The notes below the pieces were generated by a model. That model was not told where the DNA came from, ran no database searches, and worked only from the letters and a program-made list of their open reading frames with translations. From contig NZ_CP025228.1 of NCBI RefSeq assembly GCF_004102025.1, positions 1,922,001 to 1,986,000 on the forward strand: a stretch of DNA of 64,000 bases. The letters are read 5' to 3'. How positions within the stretch are numbered: the first letter of the stretch is position 1; every line of letters starts with the position of its first letter. The position numbers and the translations under genes were made by a program. Positions 1 through 16,392 of the stretch are shown here, piece after piece. The stretch is from Actinomyces qiguomingii. Its GTDB lineage: Bacteria; Actinomycetota; Actinomycetes; Actinomycetales; Actinomycetaceae.

Positions 1-1128
1 GTCATTCAGTCCCAGGTAGCTGACCTCCACCCGCCCGTAGCGGCCGGAGTCGAAGGGCGCCGTTGTGGCCCCCTGGGTGGGTGCGTTGACGGCGAAGCCG
101 TGGTTGTGGGAGGTGATCTCTACCCGGCCGGTGGCCCGGTCCAACACCGGCTGGTTGACGCCTCGGTGCCCGTAGTCAAGTTTGTAGGTGCCGAAGCCCA
201 GCGCCCTGCCAAAGATCTGGTTGCCCAGGCAGATACCGAAGAAGGGAATACGGGCGTCTAGAACGCCACGCAGCAGCTCCACCTCAGCGTCGGCCGTCCC
301 CGGATCGCCGGGGCCATTGGAGAAAAAGACTCCATCAGGGTGCAGGGCGAGTACCTCGACCAAGGTGGTGGACTGCGGCAGCACGTGTACGCGTACGCCC
401 CGTTCGGCCAGCTGCCAGGGGGTGCGTGCCTTGATACCCAGGTCGATGGCGGCCACAACGGCGATCGGCTCCTGGCCGGCGAAGTCGCCCCCGGGTTCTA
501 CGGTGTAAGGCTCGGTGGTGGTCACCTCCGCCGCCAGCGCCTGTCCGGTCATGGCCGGTGCGGAGCGTACCGCGTCCAAACAGGACTCGATAACCCGCGG
601 GGTCGGCTGTGACTGCTCCGGTGAGGCCACGCCATCGGGCAGGGCGGTCCCGGAGAAGATACCGGCGCGCATGGCTCCCCGCTCACGCAGGTGGCGGGTC
701 AGGGCGCGGGTGTCGATGTCGCAAATGCCGACCACGCCGTGGGTCACCAGCTCGGTCTCCAGTTCGCGGCGGGATCGCCAGGAGGAGGCGCGCCGAGCCG
801 GGTCGCGCACCACGAAACCTGCCACCCAGATGCGGTCGGACTCCCCGTCCTCGTCGTTGATGCCGGTATTACCGATGTGCGGCGCGGTCATCACCACGAT
901 CTGCCGGTGGTAGGAGGGGTCGGTGAGAGTCTCCTGGTAACCGGTCATGCCGGTGTTGAAGACGATCTCGGCGACAGTGGAGCCGGTGGCGCCGTAGGAG
1001 CTACCCACCAGTGTGTAGCCGTCTTCCAGGACCAGCAGTGCCGGGGTGCGCACGATACGCTCTCCGGCGGGCAGGGCGGGGCTGGTGAAACCGCCGTAGG
1101 CAGCCGGCGTGGGACTGGAGTCGTTCAT
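1..1128 (-). CDS. carA: Carbamoyl-phosphate synthase small (glutaminase) chain, 3' end cut by window edge
   Basis: CarA hydrolyses glutamine and passes ammonia to CarB to make carbamoyl phosphate for pyrimidines and arginine. Translating the minus strand from the ATG at 1128 gives 376 codons open to the window edge. It begins [12 protein letters not shown] and contains the N-terminal CarA fold ([20 protein letters not shown]), the class I amidotransferase nucleophile elbow (FFGICLGNQ, catalytic Cys) and the SHNHGF histidine segment near the end, so only a short C-terminus is missing. The start codon overlaps the pyrC stop (ATGA, 1125-1128), which implies translational coupling as the fourth gene of the pyr operon. 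carB is expected just outside the window. No key residue is missing in what is visible. Confidence 0.95.
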
Positions 1129-2462
1129 GCCTGCTCCTTCGGTTCGGTCTCCTGGCTTGCACGCTCCACGGGACGACCGGCCAGCACGGTGGGGCGGCCG
1201 TGTAGGAAGGTGGCCAGTACCTGCCCGGGCAGCTCCATGCCGACGTAGGGGGTGTTGGTGGAACGAGTCCACTGGGACTCGGGGTCAACTACCTGCCGCA
1301 CGCCGGGGTCCACCACCGTGACATTGGCGGGCTCTCCCACGGCCAGCGGGCGGCCCTGATCGGCTAGTCGACCGATGCGGGCCGGCGTTTCGGACAGCAC
1401 GCGCGCCACGTCCCGCCAGGTCATGAGTCCGGGCTCGACCATGGTGGCGATGATGATTGGCAGGGCTGTCTCCAGACCGGTCATGCCGAAGGCGCCGGCC
1501 TGCCACTCGCAGTCTTTGGACTCGCGCGGATGGGGGGCGTGATCCGTGCCGACCACGTCGATGGTCCCGTCGGCCAGTGCTTCTCGCACCGCCTCCACGT
1601 CGGCGGCGGTGCGCAGCGGCGGGTTGACCTTGTACCGGGGCGAGTAGGTGCGGGCCAGTTCGTCGGTCAGCAGCAGATGATGAGGGGTGACTTCGGCGGT
1701 GACATTGATTCCGCGGGCCTTGGCCCAGCGGATGATCTCCACGCTGCCGGCGGTGGACAGGTGGCACACATGCAGGCGGGAACCGACGTGCCCCGCCAAT
1801 AAGACGTCACGGGCGATGATCGACTCCTCGGCGACGGCGGGCCAGCCGGCCAGGCCGAGCTCGGCCGAGACACGGCCCTCATGCATCTGGGAGCCCTCGG
1901 TCAGGCGCGGGTCCTGGGAGTGCTGGGCAATCACGCCGTCGAAGGACTTGACGTATTCCAAGGCGCGGCGCATGAGCACCGGGTCGGATACGCAGTTGCC
2001 GTCATCGGAAAAGACACGCACCCGGGCGGCAGAGTGCGCCATAGCACCCATCTGGGACAGGTGCTCACCCTTAAGCCCCTCGGAGACGGCACCGACAGGG
2101 TGCACATCCACCCAGCCGGCCTGGTTGCCCAGGCGCAGCACCTGCTCGACCACACCGGCGTTGTCCTGCGCAGGGGTGGTGTTGGCCATGGCGAACACGG
2201 CGGTGTAACCGCCGACGGCGGCGGCACGGGTGCCGGTGTAGACGGTTTCGGCGCTCTCACCGCCGGGTTGACGCAGGTGGGTGTGAATGTCCACCAGACC
2301 GGGCAGTAGCACCCGGCCGGCCAGGTCGTCGTGGCGGTGGGCGTCGGCGGGGGCCTGGGCGGCGGCGTCGGAGCCGATGGCGGCCAGGCGGCCTTCGCTG
2401 ATCAGGACATCGGTGGCGTCCTCGCCATAGGGGCGGACACCGGGCAGGAGGTGAGCGGTCAC
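1125..2462 (-). CDS. pyrC: Dihydroorotase (class I type, PyrC)
   Basis: Catalyses the reversible cyclisation of N-carbamoyl-L-aspartate to dihydroorotate, step three of pyrimidine synthesis. The 445-residue protein has the amidohydrolase metal motif [10 protein letters not shown] at about residues 58-67, the DDG segment (FSDDGNCV) and the GTDHAPH motif that carries the catalytic Asp, all typical of the long class I dihydroorotases of Gram-positive bacteria. The start at 2462 overlaps the pyrB stop (ATGA) and the stop overlaps the carA start, so the gene sits in a tightly coupled pyrR-pyrB-pyrC-carA transcript. Its length is normal for the family and nothing appears damaged. Confidence 0.96.
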
Positions 2463-3463
2463 AGCTGGTTCCCTTCGTCGGCGAGGAGCAGGTAGAGAGC
2501 GGCCATACGCACAGAGACGCCGTTACCCACCTGTTCGACCACGCGCGAGCGGGGGTCGTCAGCGGCGTCGGCGGTGATCTCCAGGCCACGATTCATAGGG
2601 CCGGGGTGCATGACGATGGCGTGTTCGGGCATGGCGGTTCGGCGCACCGCGCCGAGCCCGTAGCCGCGTGAGTACTCCTCCGGGCTGGGGAAGAAGCCAC
2701 CGCCCGCGGCGCTCATGCGCTCGCGCTGCACGCGCAGCATCATCACGGCATCGGGCTCGACGGCGGCGATGGCGGCATCGAAATCGTAGGAGACCTCGCA
2801 GGGCCAGTCATCCATGCCCACCGGCAGCAGGGTGGGTGGGGCGACCAGGGTGACCCGCGCGCCCAGCGTTGTGAGCAGGTCGACATTTGAGCGGGCCACC
2901 CGTGAGTGCAATACGTCGCCGACGATGATCACTCGGGCCCCTTCCAGGTCACGGCCCTGGGGGGCCGGGGCGCCGTCGGCGGCGCGGGCCGAACCGGAGG
3001 CTGGTCCGCCGGGGGCGTACCAGCGGCGCAGGGTCATGGCGTCCAGCAGCGCCTGGGTGGGGTGCTGGTGGGTGCCGTCGCCAGCATTGAGGACGGGCAC
3101 GTCAATCCAGCCAGCGTGCGCCAGCAGGTGGGCGGCGCCGCAGGCGGAGTGGCGCACCACCACTGCGTCGGCGCCCATGGCCATGATGGTCTGTGCGGTG
3201 TCCTTCAGGGTCTCCCCCTTGGAGACCGAGGAGCCTTTGGCGGAGAAGTTGATGACGTCGGCGCTCAGGCGCTTGGCGGCGGCCTCGAAGGACAGCCGAG
3301 TGCGGGTGGAGTCCTCGAAGAAGAGGTTCACCACGGTCTTGCCGCGCAGGGTGGGCAGCTTCTTGACGGCGTGGCGCTGGGTAGCGGCCATTGCCTCGGC
3401 GGTGTCGAGCACCATCACCGCCTCGTCATGGGACAGGTCCTTGGCGGACAGCAGGTGCTTCAT
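2459..3463 (-). CDS. pyrB: Aspartate carbamoyltransferase catalytic chain
   Basis: Condenses carbamoyl phosphate with aspartate, the committed step of pyrimidine synthesis. The 334-residue protein carries the carbamoyl-phosphate loop ([13 protein letters not shown], about residues 49-61) and the HPTQALLD motif (about 133-140). The usual loop between the HPTQ domain and the [12 protein letters not shown] segment is enlarged by roughly 20-25 small and charged residues (about 153-175), which is not part of the core fold as I know it. The gene is coupled to pyrR upstream and pyrC downstream by 4 bp overlaps. No pyrI regulatory chain is present, as expected for Gram-positive PyrB, so control is likely at the mRNA level through PyrR. 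Confidence 0.96.
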
Positions 3464-4047
3464 CGGGTGGCCTCCTGGGTCTGGGCGTCGACGATGGTCA
3501 CGGCGTCCGCGTCGGCGCCGAGCTCGGTCAGGGCGACTACCACCTTCTCCGAGCGCGAAGTGGGCAGATTCTTACCCACATAGTCGGCCCGGATGGGTAG
3601 CTGGCGGTGACCCCGGTCCACCAGGACGGCCAGCTGAACCGCGTCGGCGCGGCCGATTGCGCCTAGGGCGTCCAGGGCGGCCCGGATGGTGCGGCCGGAG
3701 AATAGGACGTCGTCAACCAGGATGACGGTGCGTCCCTCCAGAGTCTCACCCGGAATCCGCGTGGGCCGGGGCACGCGGATGGGATGACGGCCGAGATCGT
3801 CGCGGTACATGGTGATGTCGAGGGTGCCTACCGGCGGGGCGCCGGCACCTTCCTCCCCTTTGGCTGCCATCTCCAGGGCGGCGGCCAGACGCTGGGCCAA
3901 TGGGACTCCGCCGGTTGGGATGCCGAGAATCATCAGGTCACTGCTGCCCCGATTGCGTTCGAGGATCTCGTGGGCTATGCGGACGAGGGAGCGCTGAATC
4001 TCGGCAGCGCCGAGGATCTGCTTCCCGCTGGGCTGGGCTGCGGCCAC
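3460..4047 (-). CDS. pyrR: PyrR bifunctional pyr operon regulator / uracil phosphoribosyltransferase
   Basis: PyrR binds pyr mRNA in response to UMP/UTP and also has uracil phosphoribosyltransferase activity. The 195-residue protein has the type I PRPP-binding motif [13 protein letters not shown] (about residues 109-121) and the PyrR hallmarks near the N-terminus ([14 protein letters not shown]) and GIPTGGV. The start is a GTG at 4047, chosen because a strong Shine-Dalgarno (AAGGAGGT, 4057-4064) lies 9 nt upstream. The leader holds a PyrR-type binding loop whose stem can pair with this ribosome site (separate entry). First gene of the pyr operon; the stop overlaps the pyrB start. Confidence 0.96.
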
Positions 4048-4056
4048 GGTATGTGG

Positions 4057-4092
4057 ACCTCCTTCTCCGCCTCACTGGACGGGCTTCAAGGA
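4057..4092 (-). promoter_or_regulatory. Putative PyrR-binding leader hairpin that occludes the pyrR ribosome-binding site
   Basis: On the minus strand the leader reads TCCTT (4092-4088), GCC (4084-4082), the loop CGTCCAGTGA, GGC (4071-4069), then the Shine-Dalgarno AAGGAGGT (4064-4057). TCCTT can pair with AAGGA of the Shine-Dalgarno and GCC with GGC, presenting UCCAGUGAGG in the loop. This matches the PyrR binding-loop core known from Bacillus and mycobacteria (UCC-G-GAGG). A candidate -10 (TAACAT, 4112-4107) would start the RNA close to 4100, just before the hairpin; no good -35 was seen. The arrangement fits PyrR-dependent translational repression as described for Mycobacterium smegmatis rather than Bacillus-type attenuation. 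This is inferred from sequence only. Confidence 0.7.
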
Positions 4093-4168
4093 TGTCGGTC
4101 GGGCCGATGTTAGCGCAGGGACTGGGCCGACGCGTCCGGTGTCCGCCCGGTGAGCCTCACACCCCCCA

Positions 4169-4234
4169 CGCCGAGTTCGGTCGACGTTACCGCCGAGTTC
4201 GGCCGATATTACCGCCGAGTTCGGTCGATATGGC
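4169..4234. repeat. Three tandem 22 bp units with core CCGAGTTCGG
   Basis: Units at 4169-4190, 4191-4212 and 4213-4234 follow one another with an exact 22 bp period. Each contains the near-palindrome CCGA-GT-TCGG followed by a more variable TCGATATTAC-like part; the last ends in TATGGC. The same unit occurs twice at 22812-22855. Both arrays lie between the 3' end of one minus-strand gene and the 5' leader of the next (here sorC-type gene and pyrR). Function unknown. Confidence 0.85.
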
Positions 4235-4337
4235 ATGGGGAGTCGCGCCCGCCCACGGTGCCGGGTTGGGTGCCTTAGCCGCATTCGTATATGACGGCGG
4301 AACGCCCACGCCAGCCCCTCGCCCGTCAGCAGCACGC

Positions 4338-5294
4338 TCAGCTCCCCTCGAGCACCGCGCGGGCGGTGACCTCATCGGTCACGAGCGCGGAGAGGAAGCC
4401 GCCACGCAGCGCAGCCCGGATAGCCGTGATCTTGTCCTCGCCGGCAGCCACGCCGACCACCACTGGAATCGCCTTAAGCCGTTCGGGCTCCATGCACAGG
4501 GTGCGCTCACACAGCGCCGTGGGCACGTGTCTTCCCTCGGCGTCCAGATGATGTCCGCACAGGTGTGCAACTGCGCCACGACGGCGGCACTCGCGCACCA
4601 CCTGCGGTGTCATCCACTTGCGCAGCAGCGGGCTGGCGGACTCGCCCACCGCACCGATACCCGTAAGGGCAACGTCGCTGCGCGCGGCCAGTTCCAGGGT
4701 GGTGGCTACCTGATCCTCTTGGCGTACGGCGCGCGCCAGATTCAGAGAGTCGAACACTAAAGGCACGGTAAGGGAGCGATACCGGCCTCCCAGCCGCATG
4801 GCGAGATTGCGGCACACGTCGCCGCCGTCGCCCAGGTCGAAGGACTCGCCCGCCGAGCCGATCATGGACACGACGGTAGAACTCGGCCAGGTGCGCTCAG
4901 GCGTCTGCTGTACGACGGCGGCCACTGCCCGTCCATTGGACACAGCTATCACCGAACGCGGCCCGCAGTAGTCGACCAGCAGCTCTGCCGCGGCCCTGGC
5001 CACGTCGGGCGTCACACCAGGGAGCACCGGGTGGGAGACCTCGGTGACGCGCGCCTCCTTAAGGCTGTAGGCCGAACTGAGCTGCTCCTCCAGCGCCATT
5101 AGGCGCTCGATGGGGTGGGCAACGGTTACCCGCACGATCCCAACCCTGCGGGCCTCGGTCAGTTTGCGTGAGACCGTGGAACGCGAGTAGCCCAGGCGTT
5201 CGGCGATCTCCTCCTGACTCAGATCCCGGTCCCAGTAAAGGTGAGCGATATTGAGCAGCAGCCGCGCCTGCTCACGGTCCAGGTTGGCGCACAT
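4338..5294 (-). CDS. SorC/DeoR-type sugar-binding transcriptional regulator
   Basis: Probable repressor of the divergent sugar-acid operon at 5522-10614. The 318-residue protein has an N-terminal helix-turn-helix (LSQEEIAERLGYSRSTVSRK, about residues 25-44) and the SorC family C-terminal effector domain, related to sugar-phosphate isomerases, beginning about residue 60. The family normally binds a phosphorylated sugar as inducer, which suits the phosphorylated intermediates expected from the neighbouring enzymes. The start is the ATG at 5294. A TAAGAT box (5306-5301) lies seven bases before this ATG, so the mRNA may be leaderless, and an AGTTGC-12-GCAACT inverted repeat covers that box, suggesting autoregulation. 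Confidence 0.85.
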   Translation of the reverse strand: MCANLDREQARLLLNIAHLYWDRDLSQEEIAERLGYSRSTVSRKLTEARRVGIVRVTVAHPIERLMALEEQLSSAYSLKEARVTEVSHPVLPGVTPDVARAAAELLVDYCGPRSVIAVSNGRAVAAVVQQTPERTWPSSTVVSMIGSAGESFDLGDGGDVCRNLAMRLGGRYRSLTVPLVFDSLNLARAVRQEDQVATTLELAARSDVALTGIGAVGESASPLLRKWMTPQVVRECRRRGAVAHLCGHHLDAEGRHVPTALCERTLCMEPERLKAIPVVVGVAAGEDKITAIRAALRGGFLSALVTDEVTARAVLEGS

Positions 5295-5435
5295 AGTTGC
5301 ATCTTACGATCAGCAACTTCGTATTTCACTGTAAATATTGCAGGCGTATCGGTTGTGAACACCACCTTCGCTGATGGAAAGATGCACGAACGTGCATGAC
5401 CGCCTTTTGTAGACGGGTCGGGCCATGCCTAGCGT
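5295..5435. promoter_or_regulatory. Divergent control region with two inverted repeats and a candidate promoter
   Basis: This stretch between the SorC-type regulator and its target operon holds: (a) AGTTGC-N12-GCAACT at 5295-5318, overlapping the regulator's TAAGAT -10 candidate; (b) a perfect palindrome ATGCACG-AA-CGTGCAT at 5382-5397; (c) a possible plus-strand promoter TTGTAG (5407-5412), 17 bp, TAGCGT (5430-5435) just downstream of the palindrome. The palindromes are candidate operators. The promoter boxes are weak matches and the leader to the first gene would be about 80 nt. Confidence 0.45.
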
Positions 5436-5521
5436 TAAGGCGTCGCAACGGTGGGAACTGGGAACTTGGGACCGGCTCCCACCCGGCGGCTCCCTCGCTC
5501 ACCCGTTCGAAGGAGAACCAT

Positions 5522-6514
5522 ATGGCAGTTGTCCGCACCATCAACGGCGACGTCGATCCGTCCACACTCGGCGTCGTTAACGCCCACGACCACCTCATCC
5601 GCGTCGGCGCGGGCGAGGTTTACATCGACCCCGACCATCTTCTGGATGACGAGGATAAGGCGGCCCAGGAAGCCGGATACTTCGTCGCCGCCTCCAAGCG
5701 CTTCGCCCCGACCGCCACCATCGTGGACATGTGTCCGGCCTCCTGTGGCCGCGGCGTGGTCAAGCTCAAGCGGGTGGTCGAACGGGTCCCCGACCTGCAG
5801 GTCATCCAGGCCACCGGCTTCCACCAGCAGAAGGTGTACCTGGAGTGGCGCCAGTCCTGGGTCAACCAGTACACCGTCAACGAGATCGCCGACTTGCTGA
5901 TCGCCGACATCGTCGAAGGCGTTGACGCGGGCGACTACATGGGCCCGCTGGTCAGACGCACCGACGTGCGTGCCGGCGTGATCAAGTGGGCCACCGCCTA
6001 CGGGAAGATCACTGACTGGGAGGTCAAGACCGGTAAGGCCGTCGCCATTGCTTCCAAGGAGACCGGCGCGCCGGTCAACACCCATGTCACCGCCGGCACC
6101 TGTGGCCCCGAGCAGGCCCGCTTCCTGATCGACCAGGGCGTGGCCCCGGAGAAGATCGCCATCGGCCACATCCAGCGCAACTGGGACCCGTGGGTCCAGG
6201 AGCAGATCACGAAGCTAGGCGCCTACGTGGAACTGGACGGCACCAACCGCATCAAATACGTGCCGGACAACGCCCGCGTCAACTTGCTCAAAGTGCTAGG
6301 TGAGAAGGGCTACGGCAAGCAGATACTGCTCGGCACCGACTCTGGCAAGGCCTCCTACCAGAAGGCCTACGGCTCGGTCTCCGGGATCGACTACGACCCG
6401 GCCGTGTTCTGCCCGCGCCTGATCGACGACGAGGGCTTCGACCCCGACTATGTCCAGGACCTGCTGGTGAACAATGCCGCGACGTTCTTCGCCTTCGAGC
6501 CCTTGGCCGACTGA
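5522..6514 (+). CDS. Phosphotriesterase-family metal hydrolase, probable sugar-lactone(-phosphate) lactonase
   Basis: Amidohydrolase-superfamily TIM-barrel enzyme of 330 residues. All binuclear metal ligands of the phosphotriesterase homology family are visible: H22 and H24 (NAHDHL), a bridging Lys at K155 (AGVIKWA), H188 (NTHVT), H216 (IGHIQRN) and D273 (LLGTDSGK). Family members with a bridging Lys include lactonases acting on sugar lactones and lactone phosphates, such as the Mycoplasma enzymes for xylono/arabino-lactone 5-phosphates. The neighbours encode UlaD- and UlaE-like enzymes, so a lactone or lactone-phosphate substrate replacing the UlaG step is a reasonable inference. The start was set at 5522 because an AAGGAG ribosome site sits just upstream; a longer in-frame reading back to 5396 lacks one. 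First gene of the operon. Confidence 0.85.
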   Translation: MAVVRTINGDVDPSTLGVVNAHDHLIRVGAGEVYIDPDHLLDDEDKAAQEAGYFVAASKRFAPTATIVDMCPASCGRGVVKLKRVVERVPDLQVIQATGFHQQKVYLEWRQSWVNQYTVNEIADLLIADIVEGVDAGDYMGPLVRRTDVRAGVIKWATAYGKITDWEVKTGKAVAIASKETGAPVNTHVTAGTCGPEQARFLIDQGVAPEKIAIGHIQRNWDPWVQEQITKLGAYVELDGTNRIKYVPDNARVNLLKVLGEKGYGKQILLGTDSGKASYQKAYGSVSGIDYDPAVFCPRLIDDEGFDPDYVQDLLVNNAATFFAFEPLAD

Positions 6515-6529
6515 ACGAGGCGAATCGAA

Positions 6530-7198
6530 ATGAGCGAACCCCGCAACACGCCCAGGCTCCAGATCGCCCTGGACACCCTGGACCAGCCCAGTGCGCTGGG
6601 CCCGCTGCAGCAGGCGGCGCCGTACGTCGACATCATCGAGTGCGGCACCATCCTGATCCTTTGCGAGGGCTACCATGCGGTGCGCAACATCCGCGCCCTG
6701 TTCCCCAACAAGCAGATCCTGGCCGACGTGCGCATCGCGGAGGCCGGTGCCAAAATCGCTCGCCTTGCCTTCGAGGCCGGCGCGGACCTGGTCTCCTGCG
6801 TGGCGGGCGCCTCCATGACCACTATCGAGCAGGTCTGCAAGGTAGCCGCGGATTTCGACGGCGAGGTGCAGGTGGAGCTGGCCGACGAGTGGTACGACCC
6901 CGAGCGTGCCCGCGCCTGGCGCGCCGCCGGCGTCCAGCACGTCATCGTCAAGCGCTCCCGCGACCGCGAGGCGGCCGGCGACCTGTCCTGGAAGGCCGAG
7001 GACATGGACCGCGTCGACGAACTGGCGGACATGGGCTTCACGGTCACCGTCACCGGGGGCATCAATGTGGGGGATCTGCCCGCCTTCATCGGCAGGCGGG
7101 TAGGCATCGTCATCGCCGGCCGGTCAATTGTGGCCGCCGCCGACCCGGCCGGCTCCGCAGCCGCCCTGCGCGATGCCATCGACAAGGTGTGGCCATGA
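6530..7198 (+). CDS. UlaD-like 3-keto-L-gulonate-6-phosphate decarboxylase family protein with altered active-site residues
   Basis: OMP-decarboxylase-superfamily barrel of 222 residues that aligns by eye along its whole length with E. coli UlaD: ALD at 13-15, IIECGTIL at 35-42, LADVRIAEAG at 64-73, VQVEL at 113-117, RSRDREAAG at 142-150, TVTGGI at 173-178, IAGRSI at 195-200. UlaD converts 3-keto-L-gulonate 6-phosphate to L-xylulose 5-phosphate and CO2. The usual D-x-K-x-x-D signature reads D66-x-R68-x-x-E71 here, and the position of UlaD His136 is K141, while the arginine matching R139 is kept. So the key lysine is replaced by Arg and a Lys appears where His is expected. The substrate or chemistry may differ. 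The stop overlaps the next gene's start (ATGA). Confidence 0.85.
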   Translation: MSEPRNTPRLQIALDTLDQPSALGPLQQAAPYVDIIECGTILILCEGYHAVRNIRALFPNKQILADVRIAEAGAKIARLAFEAGADLVSCVAGASMTTIEQVCKVAADFDGEVQVELADEWYDPERARAWRAAGVQHVIVKRSRDREAAGDLSWKAEDMDRVDELADMGFTVTVTGGINVGDLPAFIGRRVGIVIAGRSIVAAADPAGSAAALRDAIDKVWP

Positions 7199-8079
7199 GC
7201 ATGACCTTCCTTGATGACGGCATCCGTCTGGGCATCTATGAGAAGGCCCTGGTCTCCAACCCGCTGGCCAGCCCGGACGACTGGGCGAGCTTCCTGGCGC
7301 AGGTGCCGCAGGCCGGCTACTCCTTCCTGGACCTGTCGGTCGACGAGTCCCCCGAGCGGGAGGCCCGCCTGGAGTGGGGGCCGCGCCAGTGCCGCATGGT
7401 TCGACAGGCCGCCGAATCGGTCGGCACCGGCATCGGCGGGGTGTGCCTGTCGGTGCACCGGCGCATCGGCCCGGGCTCGGCCGACCCCGAAGTCAGGCGA
7501 CGGGCCCGGGAGGTCATGGCCCGGGGCCTCGAACTGTGCCACGAGCTAGGCGCGCCCGTGATCCAGGTCGCGGGCTACTACGCCTACTACGAGGACCCGC
7601 ACCCTGACGCCGAGCGCTGGTACTGCCAGCTGCTGGCCGACGCCGTTCCCCTGGCCTCCCGCCTGGGAGTGGTGATGGGGATTGAGAACGTTGACGGCAC
7701 GGACGTGACCTCCATCGGCAAGGCCATGGAGTTCGTTGACGCCGTCGGCTCCCCCTATCTGCAGGTCTACCCGGACCTGGGCAACATCGCCGAGCAGGGG
7801 CTCGATCCCATCGTCGAACTCGAGGCCGGCCGTGGGCACATGGTGGCCATGCACGCCAAGGACGTGCGGCGCGGCGAGCCCCGCAGGGTGGACATGGGCA
7901 CGGGCATCGTCGACTGGGACCTGTCCTTCAAGCTGCTCGCCGAGCAGCACTGGACCGGTCGACTCATGATCGAGATGTGGAACGACGACGCCCCCGACTC
8001 AGTGGCGCGCTGCATCGGCGCCCGCGAATTCATTGAGGGCAAGGCCGCTGGCGCCGGCATCGCCATCGACAAGCCCTGA
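7195..8079 (+). CDS. UlaE-like L-ribulose-5-phosphate 3-epimerase (xylose-isomerase-like TIM barrel)
   Basis: 294-residue homologue of UlaE/SgbU, which interconverts L-xylulose 5-phosphate and L-ribulose 5-phosphate. The metal ligands are visible at E164 (GIENVD), D194 (YPDLGN), H220 (AMHAKD) and E260 (LMIEMWND), and the N-terminal LGIYEKAL and CLSVHRR segments match the family. The ATG at 7195 overlaps the upstream stop (ATGA); a second ATG at 7201 is possible. The gene directly follows the UlaD-like decarboxylase, the same pairing as in ascorbate and L-xylulose pathways, so the two probably act in sequence. The 4-epimerase UlaF that would complete the route to D-xylulose 5-phosphate is not in this window. 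Confidence 0.88.
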   Translation: MSMTFLDDGIRLGIYEKALVSNPLASPDDWASFLAQVPQAGYSFLDLSVDESPEREARLEWGPRQCRMVRQAAESVGTGIGGVCLSVHRRIGPGSADPEVRRRAREVMARGLELCHELGAPVIQVAGYYAYYEDPHPDAERWYCQLLADAVPLASRLGVVMGIENVDGTDVTSIGKAMEFVDAVGSPYLQVYPDLGNIAEQGLDPIVELEAGRGHMVAMHAKDVRRGEPRRVDMGTGIVDWDLSFKLLAEQHWTGRLMIEMWNDDAPDSVARCIGAREFIEGKAAGAGIAIDKP

Positions 8080-8226
8080 GCGCCACTTAACGACTCGCAC
8101 CGCGAGCCGCACCCGGCATACGCCGTCCCCCCGACCGTCTTCGAACACACCCGCGGCCACAGCCAGACAGGCAGCCGCACCGCCGCGAACTCGCGGCCAT
8201 ACACAGCCAACCAGAAGGACCGAACA

Positions 8227-9174
8227 ATGACGTACGACCTGACCACCATCGGTGAGGGACAGATCCGCCTCACCTGCGAACGCGGCGACCGGCTGGCGAC
8301 GGCCCGTTCACTGCGCATGACCGCCGCCGGCTCCGAGGCCAACGTCGCCGGCCTGCTCAGCCAACTGGGCCGCTCCACCGCCTGGGCCTCGAAGCTGCCC
8401 AGGGGCGAGTTGGCCGACCGCATCGCCCTGGAGTACTCCGCCGTCGGCGTGGACATCCGCCACACGGTGATGACTGAGGAAGGCCGCGTGGCCCTGTACT
8501 TCCTCGAGCCGGGCGAGTTTCCGCTGCCGGGCAAAGTCACCTACGACCGGCTGCACACGCCATTTCGCACCATCACGCCGGAGGAGTTCAACTGGGACGC
8601 CCTGCTGGACACCCGCGTCGTCTTCCTTACCGGCATCACCGCCGCGCTCACCCCCGAGACCGCCCGGGTGGTGCGGTACTTCGCCGACGCCGCCGTCGAA
8701 AGGGGCGTGGACCTCGCCCTGGACGTCAACTTCCGCTCACTGCTGTGGAGCGGCGAGCAGGCCCGCGCCACCCTGGAGCCGATTGCGCGCCAATCCTCGA
8801 TCCTGTTCTGCTCGCGCACCGACGCGCGCATCGTGTTCGGCATCGACAAGGCCGACGTGCAGGCCTGCCACGCCCTGCGCGAGGAAATGGGCGTGCCCAC
8901 GGTTGTCTCAACCGACGGCCGCGCCGGCACCTACCTGTCGACGGCGGAGAAAGACCGGACCTTCGAGATCCACTCGGTGCCGGTGATCGACCGGCCCGGT
9001 GCGGGTGACTCCTTCGTTGCCGGCACCCTACACGGCTGGCTGGACGGCGACGTGGAGAAGGGCATCCAGATGGGCACCAAGGTCGCTCAGATAGCGCTGA
9101 CGCACCACGGCGACCTCACACATGTGCGGGCCGGCGAGCTCCAGACCCTCCAGGGCTCGGACATCCTCCGGTGA
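8227..9174 (+). CDS. PfkB-family sugar (acid) kinase, KDG-kinase-like
   Basis: Ribokinase/PfkB-fold kinase of 315 residues expected to phosphorylate the imported sugar acid or a catabolic intermediate with ATP. The N-terminal AAGSEANVAGLLSQLG segment matches PfkB signature 1 and the C-terminal DRPGAGDSFVAG (about 255-266, catalytic base D261) matches signature 2, with Arg-Pro in place of the usual Thr-x. LALDVNFRSLLW (about 163-174) resembles the sugar-acid-contacting segment of 2-keto-3-deoxygluconate kinases, but the true substrate cannot be read from sequence. It follows the epimerase after a 147 bp gap with no gene. An AGAAGGA ribosome site precedes the ATG. With no PTS genes nearby, this kinase probably supplies the phosphate that the UlaABC PTS supplies in E. 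coli. Confidence 0.85.
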   Translation: MTYDLTTIGEGQIRLTCERGDRLATARSLRMTAAGSEANVAGLLSQLGRSTAWASKLPRGELADRIALEYSAVGVDIRHTVMTEEGRVALYFLEPGEFPLPGKVTYDRLHTPFRTITPEEFNWDALLDTRVVFLTGITAALTPETARVVRYFADAAVERGVDLALDVNFRSLLWSGEQARATLEPIARQSSILFCSRTDARIVFGIDKADVQACHALREEMGVPTVVSTDGRAGTYLSTAEKDRTFEIHSVPVIDRPGAGDSFVAGTLHGWLDGDVEKGIQMGTKVAQIALTHHGDLTHVRAGELQTLQGSDILR

Positions 9175-9222
9175 CAAGGCCCCGCACCAGCGTTCATCCT
9201 CCTTCAACGAGATCGGAATGAA

Positions 9223-10614
9223 ATGAGCACACAGACAGCGCAGTCGGCGGCGCCGCAGGGCAGAACCGCCCCTGAGCAGATCGACAATCATCGCCTGACC
9301 GGACACCAGAAGTCGCTTATCAGCATGGCTATTGTGGGCAACGTGTCGGAGTTCTTCGACATGTTTCTCATCGGTTTCATCATAAATCTACTCATCGAGA
9401 CGCCCGGCTGGAACCTGACCGGATTTCAGTCGGGAGTAATCCTGGCAGGCGCGGGCCTGGGCACGGTACTGGGATCGATCACCTGGGGGCGCCTGGCAGA
9501 CGTTTTCGGCCGCAAACACGCCTTCATCTGGTGCATCGTGGTGCTGGTGGTCTTCACTGCGGCCTCGGCAATCACCCCCGTTAACGGCTGGATCCTGCTG
9601 ACCATCTTGCGCACGGGAGTCGGATTCGGTGTCGGAGGCCTGAACATTACCTCCGTGCCCTACGTGCAGGAGTTCGTGCCGGCCAAGCAACGGGGACTGC
9701 TGGCCGGGCTCACGAGTGTGTTCATCCCTGCGGGGATCTTCCTGGGCGGGCTGGTCACCAAGTACCTCGGTGGCCCCGTTGGGTGGCGTGGCTTGATCGC
9801 CATTGGCTGCATCCCCATTGTCCTGTTGGCTTGGACCCGGATCATTCCGGAATCACCGCGCTTCTTGCAGTCAAGGGGGCGGGAGCGCGAGGCCCGGGAG
9901 GCCTACGCCTGGGCCATGGAGATCCCTGTTGAACAGGTGGCCGATCTGCCGGAGCTGCCGCAAAAGTCCTCAGCGTCCTATGCGGTCATCTTCTCCAGGT
10001 ATCCGAAGCAGCTGCTGGTGGTGGCAACAGGATCCTTCTGCTTCATAATGGGCTCATTCACGGTCCAGTCTTGGGGACAGACGCTGCTAGGGCAGTCCTT
10101 CAAGTTCAACGCGGGAACCGTGGCAACCCTGTTCATGTTCGTGTCTCTCGGCGACCTGCTGGGGCGCCTGGGATCGGCCTGGATCTCGGACAAGATCGGA
10201 CGGCGCTGGACCATGTTCGGCTGCGGCATGATTGGCGCGATCGGCGCTCTAATCGCTGCCTTCTCAACGCGGATGGTCACCGGCGATGAGATCGGTAACG
10301 CCGGGTACGTGTTCTTCGCCGGCATCTTCATTGTGATGATGTTCGGCGACGGCGCATTCGGCATCCTCAACGCTTTCGGCGGGGAGCAGTTCCCCACTGA
10401 GGCGCGCTCCACCGGGCTAGGGCTCGGGTACGGCATCGGCGCGATAGCGAAGGTGGTCGGCCCCTACTTTGTGGGCGCCCTGGTGGGCTCGGCCGAGCTC
10501 AGCCATGAAGTGGTGTTCGTGCCCTTCATTATCTTTGCGATGCTGCTGTTCCTGGGCGGAGTGACCTATCTATTCGCGCGCGAGACCAAGGGTGCCTCCC
10601 TGGAGGACATCTAG
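9223..10614 (+). CDS. MFS sugar / sugar-acid importer
   Basis: Major facilitator of 463 residues with about 12 hydrophobic segments. The inter-helix 2-3 loop GRLADVFGRK, the PESPRFLQSRGR segment after helix 6 and LGRLGSAWISDKIGRR in the second half are hallmarks of the sugar porter and aromatic-acid symporter branches. It is the last gene of the operon and most likely imports the substrate of the upstream enzymes by proton symport. The N-terminal 30 residues are polar and Gln-rich. A perfect 15 bp hairpin follows the stop immediately, closing the transcript. Confidence 0.87.
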   Translation: MSTQTAQSAAPQGRTAPEQIDNHRLTGHQKSLISMAIVGNVSEFFDMFLIGFIINLLIETPGWNLTGFQSGVILAGAGLGTVLGSITWGRLADVFGRKHAFIWCIVVLVVFTAASAITPVNGWILLTILRTGVGFGVGGLNITSVPYVQEFVPAKQRGLLAGLTSVFIPAGIFLGGLVTKYLGGPVGWRGLIAIGCIPIVLLAWTRIIPESPRFLQSRGREREAREAYAWAMEIPVEQVADLPELPQKSSASYAVIFSRYPKQLLVVATGSFCFIMGSFTVQSWGQTLLGQSFKFNAGTVATLFMFVSLGDLLGRLGSAWISDKIGRRWTMFGCGMIGAIGALIAAFSTRMVTGDEIGNAGYVFFAGIFIVMMFGDGAFGILNAFGGEQFPTEARSTGLGLGYGIGAIAKVVGPYFVGALVGSAELSHEVVFVPFIIFAMLLFLGGVTYLFARETKGASLEDI

Positions 10615-10620
10615 CGTCGT

Positions 10621-10654
10621 GTCGTGGCCGCGGTCCGCCGACCGCGGCCACGAC
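10621..10654 (+). terminator. Strong hairpin terminator after the sugar-acid operon
   Basis: Perfect 15 bp arms (10621-10635 and 10640-10654, outer sequence GTCGTGGCCGCGGTC) with a CGCC loop, seven bases after the MFS stop codon. No U-tract follows, which is common in high-GC actinobacteria. Confidence 0.8.
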
Positions 10655-10739
10655 AGCGCATCACGTTGCCAACCGCCAACACCCTCAAACCGGAAGAGCC
10701 ACATTCCGCAGCTCACGAGTAAACGACCCGGAACAGACC

Positions 10740-10777
10740 AGACCCCGCGGTAGCCGCAGTAGGCAAAAACGGGGTCT
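10740..10777 (-). terminator. Candidate terminator downstream of nusB
   Basis: Arms AGACCCCG (10740-10747) and CGGGGTCT (10770-10777) flank a 22-base loop, just past the nusB stop. The stem is short (8 bp) but perfect. Confidence 0.5.
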
Positions 10778-10792
10778 ATGGACGAGTCGAAT

Positions 10793-11326
10793 TCAGCGTA
10801 GCGTGTCGGCCAGGTCGCCGATGCGGCCCAGCAGCCCGTTGAGGAAGCGGGGGGAGTCGTCGGTCGACAGCATGCGAGCAAGGGTGATCGCCTCGTCGAC
10901 GGCTACCGGCCCATCGACATCGTCATTCCAGACGATTTCCCAGGTGGCCAGGCGCGCTATGGCCCGGTCCGTGGCCGGCATGCGGCTGAGCACCCACCCG
11001 TGGGAGTAGGTTTCTATGGTCTCGTCAATCTCGGCCAGATGGTCGGCGACGCCGGCCAGCGCCTGGCGGGTGTAGGCGGGCGCCTCGGTGTGATTGGCGG
11101 AGTGGAAGGCCCGCTCGGCGGCTAATTCCCGGAGGTTCTGCACCCCGGATGGTCCGGCCAGTAGGCCGCGCTGGTCGGCCTCGAAGAGTACCTCCACGGC
11201 ACGCCGCCGCGCCTTGGTGCGTGCGGTGACCGGGTATTTGGGGCGCTCGCCCTTGGCGGGAGCACCGTCATCATCCAGTGGCTCCGCGGCGGCGTCGGGC
11301 TCCGATACCGGCATAGATTCGGTCAT
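10793..11326 (-). CDS. nusB: Transcription antitermination protein NusB
   Basis: NusB pairs with NusE (S10) and binds boxA of rRNA transcripts for antitermination. The 177-residue protein has the NusB helical domain from about residue 33 (TARTKARRRAVEVLFEADQRG) to the C-terminus (STDDSPRFLNGLLGRIGDLA), preceded by about 30 acidic, disordered-looking residues. It starts 6 nt after the efp stop, the usual efp-nusB pairing of Gram-positive bacteria. Nothing unusual apart from the extended N-terminus. Confidence 0.95.
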   Translation of the reverse strand: MTESMPVSEPDAAAEPLDDDGAPAKGERPKYPVTARTKARRRAVEVLFEADQRGLLAGPSGVQNLRELAAERAFHSANHTEAPAYTRQALAGVADHLAEIDETIETYSHGWVLSRMPATDRAIARLATWEIVWNDDVDGPVAVDEAITLARMLSTDDSPRFLNGLLGRIGDLADTLR

Positions 11327-11332
11327 CGGCGG

Positions 11333-11896
11333 TCAGTCGGTGACGCGCGAGATGTAGGAGCGGGAGCGGGTGTCGACCTTGACCTTGTCGCCGATGTTGA
11401 GGAACAGCGGGACCTGGATCTCGGCACCGGTCTCCAGTGTGGCGGGCTTGGTGCCCGCAGAGGAGCGGTCGCCCTGCAGTCCAGGCTCGGTGTGGGAGAT
11501 GGTCAGCACCACGGCAGCCGGCAGTTCCACGAACAGCACTGTCTCCTCATGGAAGGCGACAATCACGTCCTGGCCCTCCAGCATGAGATCGGCCGACTGC
11601 CCGACCACATCGGCCGAAACATAGGTCTGCTCATAGGTCTTGACGTCCATGAAGACGAAGTCGTCGCCGTCCTTGTAGGAGAACTGCATGTCACGCCGGT
11701 CGACTGTGGCGGTCTCAACCTTGAGACCGGCGTTGAAGGTCCGGTCGACCGTCTTGCCGGACAGAACGTTCTTGATCTTGGTGCGCACGAAGGCGGGGCC
11801 CTTGCCCGGCTTGACGTGCTGGAACTCGACCACCTGCCACAGCTGCCCCTCCAGGTTGAGCACCATGCCGTTCTTCAGGTCGTTCGTCGTTGCCAC
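11333..11896 (-). CDS. efp: Translation elongation factor P
   Basis: EF-P relieves ribosome stalling at polyproline stretches. The 187-residue protein begins [20 protein letters not shown], with the lysine-tipped loop [12 protein letters not shown] at about residues 29-40 and the family C-terminus [18 protein letters not shown]. The start is a GTG at 11896, preceded by AAGGA with 7 nt spacing; the longer reading back to 12013 is rejected. Many proteins in this window are proline-rich (SecD linker, surface protein repeats), consistent with a need for EF-P. Confidence 0.96.
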
Positions 11897-12018
11897 GTGC
11901 GGTTCCTTACTCGCTAGGGGATGTCGAAGTCTTAGACCGCACAAGCTTACCGCCCTGATCCGGCAGTGCTCGGGCAGATGCCTGTCATGCCCGTCACGAG
12001 CGGGATGCCGCAACCACT

Positions 12019-12699
12019 TCAGGTTATTTCAGCCGACCTGGGTGGGTGGAGGGCATGCAGATCTCCCAGGCGGGCCAAGGTGGCGTAACGCTGTTCGGCA
12101 TAGGGCAGGGAGACCTCCAACAGGAACTCGGCCATACGGTCCTGCCCTTGGCGGGCCAGCTGCGCGGCGAGGGAGCGGATATCATCGGGGTGCCGGTTCT
12201 GGCTCATCTTGGCCTTGCCCCGGACCCGCTCGATGCCGACCTCGACCGCCACGATCGCTCGCGCCATCCGCTCGAGCTTCTCCTCCCCTACCGCACCGAG
12301 CACGTCATCGGACTCATACAGCTCGGTAAGTCGACGCGCAGCTCGTAGGGCCGCCTGGGGGTCGGGGTCGATATGCACCGGCCCCCACACGTGCAAGGTG
12401 ATGTAGTCCCAAGTGGGCACGTTCGCCTGAATCGCATTAGTGGCGTACCAGCTCGGTGAAACGTAGGCGTCTACGTCGTCGAAGATTACCATGGCGCCGC
12501 CGGTGATCGGCTCGCGCACCTGCGGGTTGTTGCGCACCAGATGGGTGACCAGCGTGCCGCGCTCGGTATCCCGGTAGAAGGGCACGAGCGTGGCCTGCGG
12601 CGCGTCGTCGTGCACGGTGATGAGATTGCCCACGCGGGGGCGGGCAAGCATCGCGGTGGCGTAATCATCGGGGAGCTCGAAATGCCCGGGCACGTACAT
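12019..12699 (-). CDS. PaiB-like FMN-binding split-barrel protein
   Basis: 226-residue protein of the PaiB / FMN-binding negative transcriptional regulator family: MYVPGHFEL at the start, [12 protein letters not shown] (about residues 77-88), [13 protein letters not shown] (about 93-105) and the C-terminal [15 protein letters not shown]. subtilis PaiB lowers expression of sporulation and protease genes, but the biochemical role of most members is unknown; the fold is a flavin-binding split barrel. The gene lies 4 nt after the AroK-like gene's stop, between the shikimate genes and efp, so it is probably co-transcribed with them. Confidence 0.88.
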
Positions 12700-12703
12700 G
12701 AGG

Positions 12704-13261
12704 TCACTTTATGGCGTGACCGGTCACCCGGTCGAGGTCGTTCCGGTCTAGTATCGCGGCGGCGGCCTGGGCGGGGGTGGTCTCGGTGGTGTCGACGACG
12801 ACGGCGCTCACGTCCGCGCACGCCTCCTCGCGCTGGCGCAGCATGTGTATGAAGGCCTGGTGGACATTGCCCAGGGCCACCGACCGGGGGGCGTCCAGGC
12901 CATTGCGGGTGGCCAGGCGTCGCGCGGCGGCCGTCAGATGGACCAGGCGCGCGCCGTCGGTCTCGGCCCGCTTCAGGGCACTGCGTATCTCCGAGTCGCC
13001 CAGGCAACCGGATCCGAGGGCCACAACGGCACCTTCCCCGAGGGCCCGGTCTATGGCCGCCAGGGCGGTGGCCGTCTCGGCGCGCCGGTAGCGCTCCTCC
13101 CCAACAGCTACCAGGGCAATGTCCGCAGAGGTTCCCAGCACTCTGGCCGTCTCCTGTCCGACGTCCACCAGCATCGCCCCGGTGGCCTGCGCCAGGGCCC
13201 GGCCAACACTGGAACAGCCCGCACCGGGAACACCGATCAGCACCACCCCGGAGGATTTCAC
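12704..13261 (-). CDS. Degenerate shikimate-kinase-like protein lacking the P-loop lysine
   Basis: 185-residue P-loop-like protein whose N-terminus reads VVLIGVPGAGCSSVG: the Walker A motif G-x-P-G-x-G-K-S has Cys16 where the catalytic lysine should be. The rest follows the shikimate kinase layout: a VDVGQE stretch where the D-x-D site should be, VVALGSGCLG in place of the G-G-G substrate loop, and DGARLVHLTA before the lid region. It is therefore probably not an active ATP-dependent shikimate kinase. An intact AroK domain is fused to AroB immediately upstream (4 bp overlap). Possibly a regulatory or scaffolding paralogue. Confidence 0.75.
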   Translation of the reverse strand: MKSSGVVLIGVPGAGCSSVGRALAQATGAMLVDVGQETARVLGTSADIALVAVGEERYRRAETATALAAIDRALGEGAVVALGSGCLGDSEIRSALKRAETDGARLVHLTAAARRLATRNGLDAPRSVALGNVHQAFIHMLRQREEACADVSAVVVDTTETTPAQAAAAILDRNDLDRVTGHAIK

Positions 13262-15123
13262 TCCGGGCCTCCGGGGACCGAGTCCCCCTTAGGGGCTGCC
13301 GTGACCGCCTCATGGGCGGCGCGCAGCACCTCCAGGGAGGGCCTGACACCGCGCACGGGTTTGGTGATGTCCTCCAATAGCACCATGCGCAGCCTGCCGG
13401 CACGCGCCTTCTTATCCGCGGTCATAGCCGCGTGCAGTGCCTGAAAGGCATCCGCGCCTTCGGGGAATGCCACCGGCAGGCCGGCGGCGCTAAAGGCGCG
13501 CCGGTGCAGCGCCAGCGCCTCGGCATCCAGATATCCCAGCCGGTGCGAGACCTCGGCGGCAAAGACGCAGCCAACGGCGACCGCCTCGCCGTGCCGCCAG
13601 GTGTAACCGGTGACCTTCTCGATGGCGTGCGCATAGGTGTGCCCGTAGTTGAGGATCTCCCGCAGACCGGATTCGGCTAGATCCTCCCCTACCACGCAGG
13701 CCTTGACCGCCACTGAACGGGTCACCAACTCGCAGATCCCCGGTGAGTGAGCGGTCGGCGGGATCGGCTCGGCCAGCACCCGGTCCAGGATCACCGGGTC
13801 GGCGATGAATCCGCATTTGACGACCTCCCCCATACCGGCACGCAGCTCCGGTGCGGGCAGCGTCACCAGGTGGCCCAGGTCGGCGATCACGGCGGCAGGA
13901 GGGTGAAAGGCGCCAACCAGGTTCTTGCCGGAGTCGGTGTCTATGCCGGTCTTGCCCCCAACGGCGGCATCCACCATCGCCAGCAGGCTGGTGGGCACCT
14001 GCACGACCGGCACGCCACGCAGCCAGGTGGCCGCGGCGAATCCCGCCAGGTCGGTGGCAGCCCCGCCTCCGACGCCGACCAGGCAGCCGTCCCGTCCCAT
14101 GCGTAAGGCACCCAACTGCTCCCAGATCTCGTTCAGTACGGTGGCCTTCTTGGCGCTCTCCCCATCCGGTACCTCAATACGGCTCACCCGTAGACCTGCC
14201 CTATTCAGGGCGGTCGCATAGTCGGCGGCGACCCCGGCCAGGGCCTGGGCATGCACCAGTGCCACCCCGCCGCCCCCCGCACCGGGCGCCTCCAGGACGG
14301 CGCGGGTGACGGCTTCGGTCAGGCCCGATCCGATAACCACGTCATAGGGGCGCGCCGCGGTGCTGGCCGGAACGGTGATCCGGGTGATGCCGTCCTCGTG
14401 CCGCGGCCGGGTTGCGGCCTGCCGAGGGGCACGGTCGGTGGCGCAAACGGGTGCCAGTGCGGCTGCGGCCTGAGACGGAGCCGCACCCAGGGAGACCAGC
14501 ACCAGCGCGGCCACCTGCTCCGGGGTGAGTCCGTCGGTGGGAACGGAGATGGTGGCAACCTGCCGATATAACTCGGCGCGCTCGGCGTGCAGGGTCTCCA
14601 TGCGGGCAAGCACATCGATGGCTACGTCGTCTCGGGCGGCCGCGGTGGCATCGGAGTCGGCGGTGGTGCAGGCACGACCGATCAGCGGGCGGCCTGCGCC
14701 GTCACCCACATGGGCGGCCGCGGTGGCGGGGGTGGCCACCAGATGCACGACTATGCGGCCGCGCAGCAGACGGCGGTTCTCCTCCCGCAGCACGGCTCCG
14801 CCTCCGAGCGCCACCACCCCCTGGGCGGCGGCCTCGCCGCTGAGCACCGCCCGCAGGGCGCGGGACTCCCGTTCCCGGAAACCGTCCTCCCCCTCGGTCG
14901 CGAAGATCTCGGGAATAGTCATGCGGGCGCGACGACGGATCTCCGCATCCGTGTCGGTGACCTGCACTCCCAAGGCGGTTGCCAGTAGGCGGGCCACCGT
15001 GGTCTTGCCGGATCCGGGCAGCCCGACCAGTATGAGCGGCAACTGGTCGGCGTTGACGACGGTGTCGGTTCGTACCATGCCGCCCGAAGGGCGGGAGTGA
15101 GTGGTGGAAACCATGGGATTCAT
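13258..15123 (-). CDS. aroKB: AroK-AroB fusion: shikimate kinase plus 3-dehydroquinate synthase
   Basis: Bifunctional 621-residue protein. Residues about 28-205 form shikimate kinase: P-loop LVGLPGSGKTTVARLL (Lys40), D-x-D (TDTDAEIRRR) and the GGGAVL loop. After a roughly 50-residue Ala/Pro-rich linker, residues about 255-605 form 3-dehydroquinate synthase (AroB): GVGGGAATDLAGFAAATWLRG, PTSLLAMVDAAVGGKTGID, NYGHTYAHAIE and RHGEAVAVG, with metal and NAD sites intact. The start is placed at 15123, where AAGGAG sits 9 nt upstream; an alternative start at 15171 would overlap aroC. The two activities are usually separate in related genomes, so the fusion is notable. The downstream gene encodes a second, degenerate AroK-like protein. 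Confidence 0.93.
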   Translation of the reverse strand: MNPMVSTTHSRPSGGMVRTDTVVNADQLPLILVGLPGSGKTTVARLLATALGVQVTDTDAEIRRRARMTIPEIFATEGEDGFRERESRALRAVLSGEAAAQGVVALGGGAVLREENRRLLRGRIVVHLVATPATAAAHVGDGAGRPLIGRACTTADSDATAAARDDVAIDVLARMETLHAERAELYRQVATISVPTDGLTPEQVAALVLVSLGAAPSQAAAALAPVCATDRAPRQAATRPRHEDGITRITVPASTAARPYDVVIGSGLTEAVTRAVLEAPGAGGGGVALVHAQALAGVAADYATALNRAGLRVSRIEVPDGESAKKATVLNEIWEQLGALRMGRDGCLVGVGGGAATDLAGFAAATWLRGVPVVQVPTSLLAMVDAAVGGKTGIDTDSGKNLVGAFHPPAAVIADLGHLVTLPAPELRAGMGEVVKCGFIADPVILDRVLAEPIPPTAHSPGICELVTRSVAVKACVVGEDLAESGLREILNYGHTYAHAIEKVTGYTWRHGEAVAVGCVFAAEVSHRLGYLDAEALALHRRAFSAAGLPVAFPEGADAFQALHAAMTADKKARAGRLRMVLLEDITKPVRGVRPSLEVLRAAHEAVTAAPKGDSVPGGPE

Positions 15124-15164
15124 GGGTAACGACTCCTTCGGCGTATGGGTGATCGTGGAACCGG

Positions 15165-16385: not shown

Positions 16386-16392
16386 AGGCCGA

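Follow-up and report, generated by a model that had tools for sequence, protein, structure and literature searches.

Actinomyces qiguomingii quite probably carries a catabolic operon for L-ascorbate (vitamin C) that is independent of the phosphotransferase system (PTS) but phosphorylative. The genes in question lie at 4338-10614 of a stretch of 64,000 nucleotides (contig NZ_CP025228.1, positions 1,922,001 to 1,986,000), referred to here as the window, which belongs to a genome consisting of a single contig of 3.99 Mb. The set comprises five genes on the forward strand (5522-10614) and, opposite to them, the gene of a SorC regulator; all six were found where the initial annotation of this DNA had placed them, and their proteins match the expected Pfam families, in every case above the cut-off.

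In the pathway that we propose, the major facilitator superfamily (MFS) protein would import L-ascorbate and the PfkB-family kinase would convert it into L-ascorbate 6-phosphate, the lactone of which would be hydrolyzed to 3-keto-L-gulonate 6-phosphate by an enzyme of the phosphotriesterase fold, i.e., the work done elsewhere by UlaG. The UlaD-like enzyme would decarboxylate this product to L-xylulose 5-phosphate, the UlaE-like enzyme would turn the latter into L-ribulose 5-phosphate, and AraD, encoded elsewhere in the genome, would produce D-xylulose 5-phosphate, with SorC controlling the operon, probably via the palindrome at 5382-5397. The substrates, the enzyme activities, and the order in which the kinase precedes the lactonase are all read from sequence comparison.

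From L-ascorbate 6-phosphate onward, the proposed intermediates are those of the Escherichia coli ula regulon (ulaG, ulaABCDEF), with which the operon shares UlaD and UlaE and its relatives, in addition, UlaG and UlaF/AraD homologues. The differences are that no PTS UlaABC is linked, a kinase and an MFS protein being there instead, that SorC stands in place of UlaR, and that, in the window and most of its relatives, a phosphotriesterase-fold lactonase takes the place of UlaG. The operon as proposed works like the ula pathway, yet it is no member of it as defined by the PTS and UlaG: the UlaD-type decarboxylase and the UlaE-type 3-epimerase are present in the gene set, and the PTS UlaABC, UlaG, and UlaF are absent from it.

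One gene set, two lactonases

The gene set was followed in two samples. The first, obtained by a search of species genomes that used a decarboxylase alignment and peptide patterns, contributed 56 loci from taxa that include Actinomyces, Cutibacterium, Propionibacterium, Corynebacterium, Arcanobacterium, and Austwickia, with Pleomorphomonas among the Alphaproteobacteria. The second, which comprises 396 genomes of the order drawn independently and without peptide patterns, has a decarboxylase at least 50% identical in 17 genomes (that of A. qiguomingii included), ten being new to the set and six being repeats. From the 18 stretches taken from other genomes, two HPS-like ones (L143, L144) and six species repeats were left out; the joint set of 66 loci counts both L049 and L050, which come from one assembly, and keeps L058, in which the lactonase/decarboxylase region is broken, and the divergent L057. 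A homologue was taken as linked when it scored above 50 bits and lay no more than 9.5 kb from the decarboxylase, a definition under which an unrelated class II aldolase nearby could count as AraD, and with it the 66 loci have PfkB in 64, UlaE in 62, MFS in 61, SorC and the phosphotriesterase in 55 each, AraD/UlaF in 54, UlaG in 11, and UlaA in none. The search in other genomes that the initial annotation had suggested finds the set next to this decarboxylase dozens of times, which rules out a chance neighborhood.

The two candidates for the lactonase replace one another in this set. Beside the decarboxylase stands the phosphotriesterase only in 54 loci, UlaG only in 10, both in one (L056), and neither in one (L029), the contig of which stops inside the MFS gene. 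The UlaG orthologues are 61-68% identical to E. coli UlaG, and the two that were scored (L049, L142) reach 620 and 617 bits on the NCBI equivalog model for L-ascorbate 6-phosphate lactonase, which has a cut-off of 306. When whole genomes were scanned, UlaG was missing from 54 of the 55 phosphotriesterase-type genomes (L057 and L058 being among the 55) and present in all five of the UlaG type; it was not found in the A. qiguomingii genome with a query that matched in control genomes. Likewise, no close orthologue of the phosphotriesterase was found in the nine UlaG-only genomes and that of L029, in a scan that matched five of five positive controls. Placing the lactonase label on a tree of the decarboxylase takes four changes, an exact number that is soft, as the tree was built by a quick method and has several long branches. 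Given this exchange, the simplest explanation is that the two enzymes share one function, the hydrolysis of L-ascorbate 6-phosphate. The view that UlaG had been replaced by an unrelated phosphotriesterase-family enzyme is therefore borne out, and the original list of substrates (a sugar-acid lactone such as ascorbate, an aldonate, or a uronate product) can be narrowed to L-ascorbate, because the candidates exchange both within the gene set and across genomes.

The window lactonase, a phosphotriesterase-family protein of the amidohydrolase fold (5522-6514, forward strand, 330 amino acids, Pfam PTE 1.8e-40), is thus a proposed L-ascorbate 6-phosphate lactonase and analogue of UlaG. Its closest solved chains are 3msr and 3pnz. 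It has all the metal ligands, as had been claimed for it: the window protein has each of the six residues (H, H, K, H, H, D), and among 61 sequences, its own and six repeats of one species counted, the two N-terminal His occur in 59 (two rows being gapped there) and the other four in all 61. The alignment was also read at five positions of 3msr that we take to bind phosphate; a Lys and a Tyr are identical in 61 of 61 lactonases and another Tyr in 60 of 61, and the remaining two positions are conservatively exchanged, one with Arg for Lys in all 61 sequences and the other with Lys for Arg in 60. Since most residues of this presumed phosphate site are kept, a phosphorylated lactone is the likely substrate.

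Kinase, import, and the later steps

In E. coli, L-ascorbate 6-phosphate is made by the PTS. The UlaA permease family, PF03611, is missing from eight of the nine UlaG-only genomes, so that L-ascorbate 6-phosphate must arise there without UlaA, and the adjacent PfkB kinase would be its natural source. Of the two loci in which PfkB is not linked, L032 starts at a contig end and L045 lies near one. In L142 (genome G469), UlaG, UlaE, PfkB, and a 50%-identical decarboxylase are found beside an ABC transporter of the oligopeptide/nickel type, for which an ATPase and a binding protein were matched, all under the curated cut-offs, and there is no MFS homologue. Together with the linkage counts for PfkB and UlaA, this locus indicates that the kinase accompanies non-PTS import whichever lactonase occurs, and the earlier proposal that an MFS protein and a kinase had replaced the PTS UlaABC is supported by the comparison of loci.

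The kinase (8227-9174, forward strand, 315 amino acids, Pfam PfkB 2.3e-34) is proposed to be an L-ascorbate 6-kinase, i.e., to phosphorylate L-ascorbate at O6 in an ATP-dependent manner. Its nearest solved relatives are 2-keto-3-deoxygluconate kinases, and a GAGD motif lies at residue 258. Tyr106, Arg108, and Arg170, which are among the positions at least 97% conserved in 65 homologues, fall, in the alignment with the Thermus 2-keto-3-deoxygluconate kinase, on Tyr103, Arg105, and Arg167, presumably substrate-binding residues; they fit an acidic sugar as the substrate and are no proof of ascorbate. Regarding the MFS transporter (9223-10614, forward strand, 463 amino acids, Pfam Sugar_tr 4.2e-43), the proposed importer of L-ascorbate, its best NCBIfam model is TIGR00895, at 174 bits and below the cut-off of 418.55.

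The UlaD-like decarboxylase (6530-7198, forward strand, Pfam OMPdecase 8.1e-26, PDB 1kv8 family 2.5e-50) scores 227 bits on the UlaD model NF009832, narrowly under the cut-off of 250. No second UlaD was found in the A. qiguomingii genome, where PF00215 has two members, the window protein and one other that we take to be pyrF. Lys64, Asp67, and His136 of E. coli UlaD correspond to Arg, Glu, and Lys in the window protein. Arg64 together with Glu67 occurs in 64 of 66 distinct rows from the related loci, the exceptions being L057 (Arg, Arg) and the fragment L058, and among these 64 rows position 136 is Lys in 56 and His in 8, a count subject to bias because the peptide patterns of the search contain Lys136 (positions 64 and 67 are free of it). 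The most divergent members keep His136, which argues that Lys136 arose after Arg64/Glu67. Lys64 with Asp67 was seen in three distinct canonical decarboxylases and 20 HPS-type rows, in a survey in which two E. coli references appear twice, and the pair is common to the OMPDC, KGPDC, and HPS rows in the consulted portion of a published table (PMC5980557). Asp11, Glu33, Asp62, Glu112, Thr169, and Arg192 are the same in the window protein as in E. coli UlaD, and Thr169 is given in the same portion of that source as the residue unique to KGPDC within its compared set (PMC5980557). We infer that the window protein is a decarboxylase with a swapped charge pair, Arg64/Glu67. As to its spread, a sample of the phylum scanned with NF009832 gave one strong match apart from the window, and the Arg/Glu decarboxylase appears rare in Alphaproteobacteria, as it was found in one of 385 sampled genomes, namely the genome at the center of the sample.

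The UlaE-like protein (7195-8079, forward strand, 294 amino acids, Pfam AP_endonuc_2 7e-42), a putative L-xylulose/L-ribulose-5-phosphate 3-epimerase, scores 327 bits on NF009688, above the cut-off of 317, and matches the E. coli UlaE structure 3cqh at 2.7e-55. UlaF had been described as missing, which is true of the operon, where there is no gene for a UlaF-type 4-epimerase, and does not extend to the genome: the suggested check for ulaF/araD yielded araD (L-ribulose-5-phosphate 4-epimerase) followed by araA (L-arabinose isomerase) near 769.6-772 kb (G000:C1), both over their NCBIfam cut-offs and ∼1.16 Mb from the operon, so that the function of the absent UlaF can be provided in trans. The AraD/UlaF homologue of the related loci often lies between the UlaE and PfkB genes; in Actinomyces succiniciruminis (L003), an araD 93% identical to that of A. 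qiguomingii is directly downstream of the set, in the opposite direction. The genomic araD and the 54 of 66 loci with an AraD/UlaF homologue nearby rule out that the pathway must lack a 4-epimerase, and the pair of L-series 3- and 4-epimerases argues for a product derived from L-ascorbate. A relic of araD in the gap 8080-8226 was considered and rejected, as there were short matches only (best E 0.57).

Weighing the ascorbate pathway against its rivals

Several observations weigh against the ascorbate pathway as outlined. L056 holds UlaG and the phosphotriesterase together, so that they can coexist and are perhaps not equivalent in every respect, and distant relatives of the phosphotriesterase (34% and 36%) occur in two UlaG-type genomes. 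Several of the genomes scanned for the absence of the lactonase, UlaG, and the permease are metagenome-assembled genomes (MAGs), and the absences may for this reason be gaps. PF03611 has three members in the ninth UlaG-only genome, G788, and A. qiguomingii itself has four such permeases, none linked to the operon. In addition, no UlaE or AraD lies within 9.5 kb in L130 and L135, the active-site residues of the decarboxylase are unusual, L036 also has a fragment of a canonical UlaD beside UlaE and AraD, and the best NCBIfam model for the lactonase is one for phospho-furanose lactonase (NF045706), which it matches at 216 bits, far short of the cut-off of 630.

Among the alternatives, the one that fares best keeps the substrate and changes the order, in that the lactonase would open unphosphorylated L-ascorbate to 3-keto-L-gulonate, from which the kinase would make 3-keto-L-gulonate 6-phosphate. 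A parallel exists in the E. coli yia cluster (yiaK-S), where the kinase LyxK, which acts on 3-keto-L-gulonate, lies with a non-PTS transporter beside sgbH-sgbU-sgbE, so that this cluster shares with the operon the non-PTS uptake and a sugar kinase before a UlaD/UlaE/UlaF-type trio. It differs in its TRAP transporter, in its 2,3-diketo-L-gulonate reductase, and in that the annotated cluster has no lactonase; LyxK, moreover, belongs to another kinase family than PfkB. We regard this order as unlikely, given that the lactonase is exchanged for UlaG orthologues matching the NCBI model for L-ascorbate 6-phosphate lactonase and that it keeps most of the residues that we take for the phosphate site of 3msr.

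A shade less probable still is that the true substrate is a related lactone-forming acid sugar, e.g., a pentono-lactone, an aldono-lactone, or D-isoascorbate. The kinase, being nearest to 2-keto-3-deoxygluconate kinases, would suit such a substrate, and the phospho-furanose lactonases of NF045706 (Mycoplasma Ms0025 / Mag6390; 3msr) include the closest solved relative of the window lactonase, which shares with them the metal ligands and most of the presumed phosphate site and differs from them in its low score on the model and in the two Lys/Arg swaps. It is also the case that the mycoplasma members of this family were characterized on pentono-lactone 5-phosphates, as they hydrolyze D-xylono- and L-arabino-1,4-lactone 5-phosphate according to the consulted part of PMC10971088. 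On the other side, UlaG orthologues occur in the same gene set, and a decarboxylase of the 3-keto-L-gulonate 6-phosphate type together with L-series UlaE and AraD/UlaF fits L-ascorbate and would be superfluous for a product of the D-series; the lactone of the window enzyme is probably different from those of the mycoplasma enzymes. Finally, that the UlaD-like protein no longer decarboxylates 3-keto-L-gulonate 6-phosphate, with the pathway ending elsewhere, is quite improbable: the Lys64/Asp67 pair of the KGPDC, HPS, and OMPDC rows seen in PMC5980557 is replaced in 64 of 66 rows from the loci, and a canonical UlaD accompanies the variant as the fragment of L036 and as a canonical-type copy on another contig of the Pleomorphomonas genome G781, but A. 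qiguomingii has no other UlaD, the six residues listed above are kept, and UlaE and AraD/UlaF still follow in the loci.

Hence the phosphorylation of L-ascorbate prior to lactone opening is the reading that we retain, and the core of the initial annotation is supported. With less assurance, though still on the favorable side, we suggest that the loci represent a second, PTS-free phosphorylative catabolism of vitamin C in Actinomycetota and a few Alphaproteobacteria, with a PfkB L-ascorbate 6-kinase, an MFS importer (in one relative apparently an ABC importer), a lactonase position that one or the other of two unrelated enzymes occupies, and a decarboxylase with Arg/Glu versus the Lys/Asp of the compared KGPDC, HPS, and OMPDC. 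A replacement of UlaG of this kind has already been proposed, in swine mycoplasmas, where a gene annotated as phosphotriesterase was put forward from gene context as a stand-in for the missing UlaG (PMC4866288); that system differs in its PTS, possibly for ascorbate, and the consulted part of the paper has no kinase/MFS variant. This paper alone, among the open-license literature searched, mentions L-ascorbate catabolism in bacteria together with both a phosphotriesterase and UlaG, and a paper on the UlaG family describes, in the part consulted, PTS-type regulons (PMC3219644). Neither an ascorbate kinase nor a PTS-independent ascorbate route was found in the open-license literature, which leaves most subscription papers outside its scope, and the kinase-based route seems undescribed. 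If correct, the proposal brings into bacterial metabolism a kinase dedicated to L-ascorbate and an importer outside the PTS, shows how ula chemistry can run in bacteria that lack an ascorbate PTS, and predicts the use of vitamin C in species of Actinomyces, Cutibacterium, Propionibacterium, Corynebacterium, and Arachnia. It would also give a likely function to a phosphotriesterase-family clade left unnamed by the NCBI models, and provide natural Arg64/Glu67 variants of a well-studied active site.

Three of the related loci deserve a separate mention. The operon of L058 (Actinomyces haliotis, 9608-11322) seems to have been damaged, as fragments of SorC and the phosphotriesterase abut and the decarboxylase is readable only in part, with UlaE, PfkB, and MFS still present. 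L057, from a Rhodospirillales MAG (5314-12459), carries the set in a distantly related form (phosphotriesterase 33%, UlaD 47%, PfkB 37%), in which the decarboxylase has Arg64, Arg67, His136, and Ala139 and a transketolase-like open reading frame (ORF) lies upstream; its substrate is possibly another one. L036, from an Acetobacteraceae MAG (35-6678), brings together the canonical UlaD fragment (with His136), UlaE, AraD, the Arg/Glu decarboxylase, PfkB, MFS, and UlaG.

Regulation and gene layout of the locus

The regulator is a sugar-binding transcriptional regulator of the SorC/DeoR type (4338-5294, reverse strand, 318 amino acids, Pfam Sugar-bind 2.9e-59), divergent from the operon. The gap between its gene and that of the lactonase contains a perfect palindrome, ATGCACG-AA-CGTGCAT (5382-5397), which is probably the operator of SorC. 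In 1.38 Mb of related stretches, its core, TGMACNNNNGTKCA, was counted 47 times vs 3.2 times after mononucleotide shuffling. Of 56 stretches, 28 have it within the SorC-lactonase gap (23 of 50 when species repeats are dropped), half of the gaps having no exact match. In L049, where the UlaG and UlaD genes diverge, the same core lies between the two, and L015 and L021 have it on the side upstream of AraD. A scan of the A. qiguomingii genome for the palindrome returned six sites vs two for the backward control; one is an identical copy beside a glpD-like gene and another SorC-like gene, one is upstream of a PTS cluster, and none was found ahead of araD, so that the palindrome gives no tie of araD to the regulon. 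Because an identical site adjoins another SorC-like gene and half of the gaps have no match, the palindrome appears typical of SorC regulators and is probably not specific to this one.

The identical copy is an exact core, TGCACGAACGTGCA, at 8031 of L164 (G000:C1:577000-594000), between the genes of the glpD-like protein and the other SorC-like regulator. The PTS cluster, at 8223-16314 of L145 in the same genome (G000:C1:632000-650000), has a PF03611 permease, IIA- and IIB-like ORFs, and a class II aldolase behind a TGAACNNNNGTTCA site, and also groups DhaK- and DhaL-like genes, an ORF resembling aldo/keto-reductases, and another SorC-type regulator; it looks like a separate sugar-phosphate pathway under SorC control.

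Promoter and terminator scans were uninformative: the two promoter-like sites fall within the MFS gene, and the single terminator-like site is on the other strand. A hairpin with perfect arms of 16 bp and a loop of 4 nt lies 3′ of the MFS gene (10620-10655) and is proposed as the end of transcription; no T run follows it, and it was therefore not counted by the terminator scan, which demands one. The lactonase most likely starts at the ATG at 5522, behind AAGGAG, rather than at 5396, the first in-frame ATG in the ORF list, and the start of the ulaE-like gene overlaps the end of the ulaD-like gene. The nearest named relatives are rumen Actinomyces, with decarboxylase identities of 95% for A. 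succiniciruminis and 93% for A. ruminicola. Judged from their translations only, the ORFs flanking the operon read as pyrC, pyrB, and pyrR (1125-4047) and as nusB, efp, aroB, and aroC (10793-16421), and the operon thus appears inserted among housekeeping genes.

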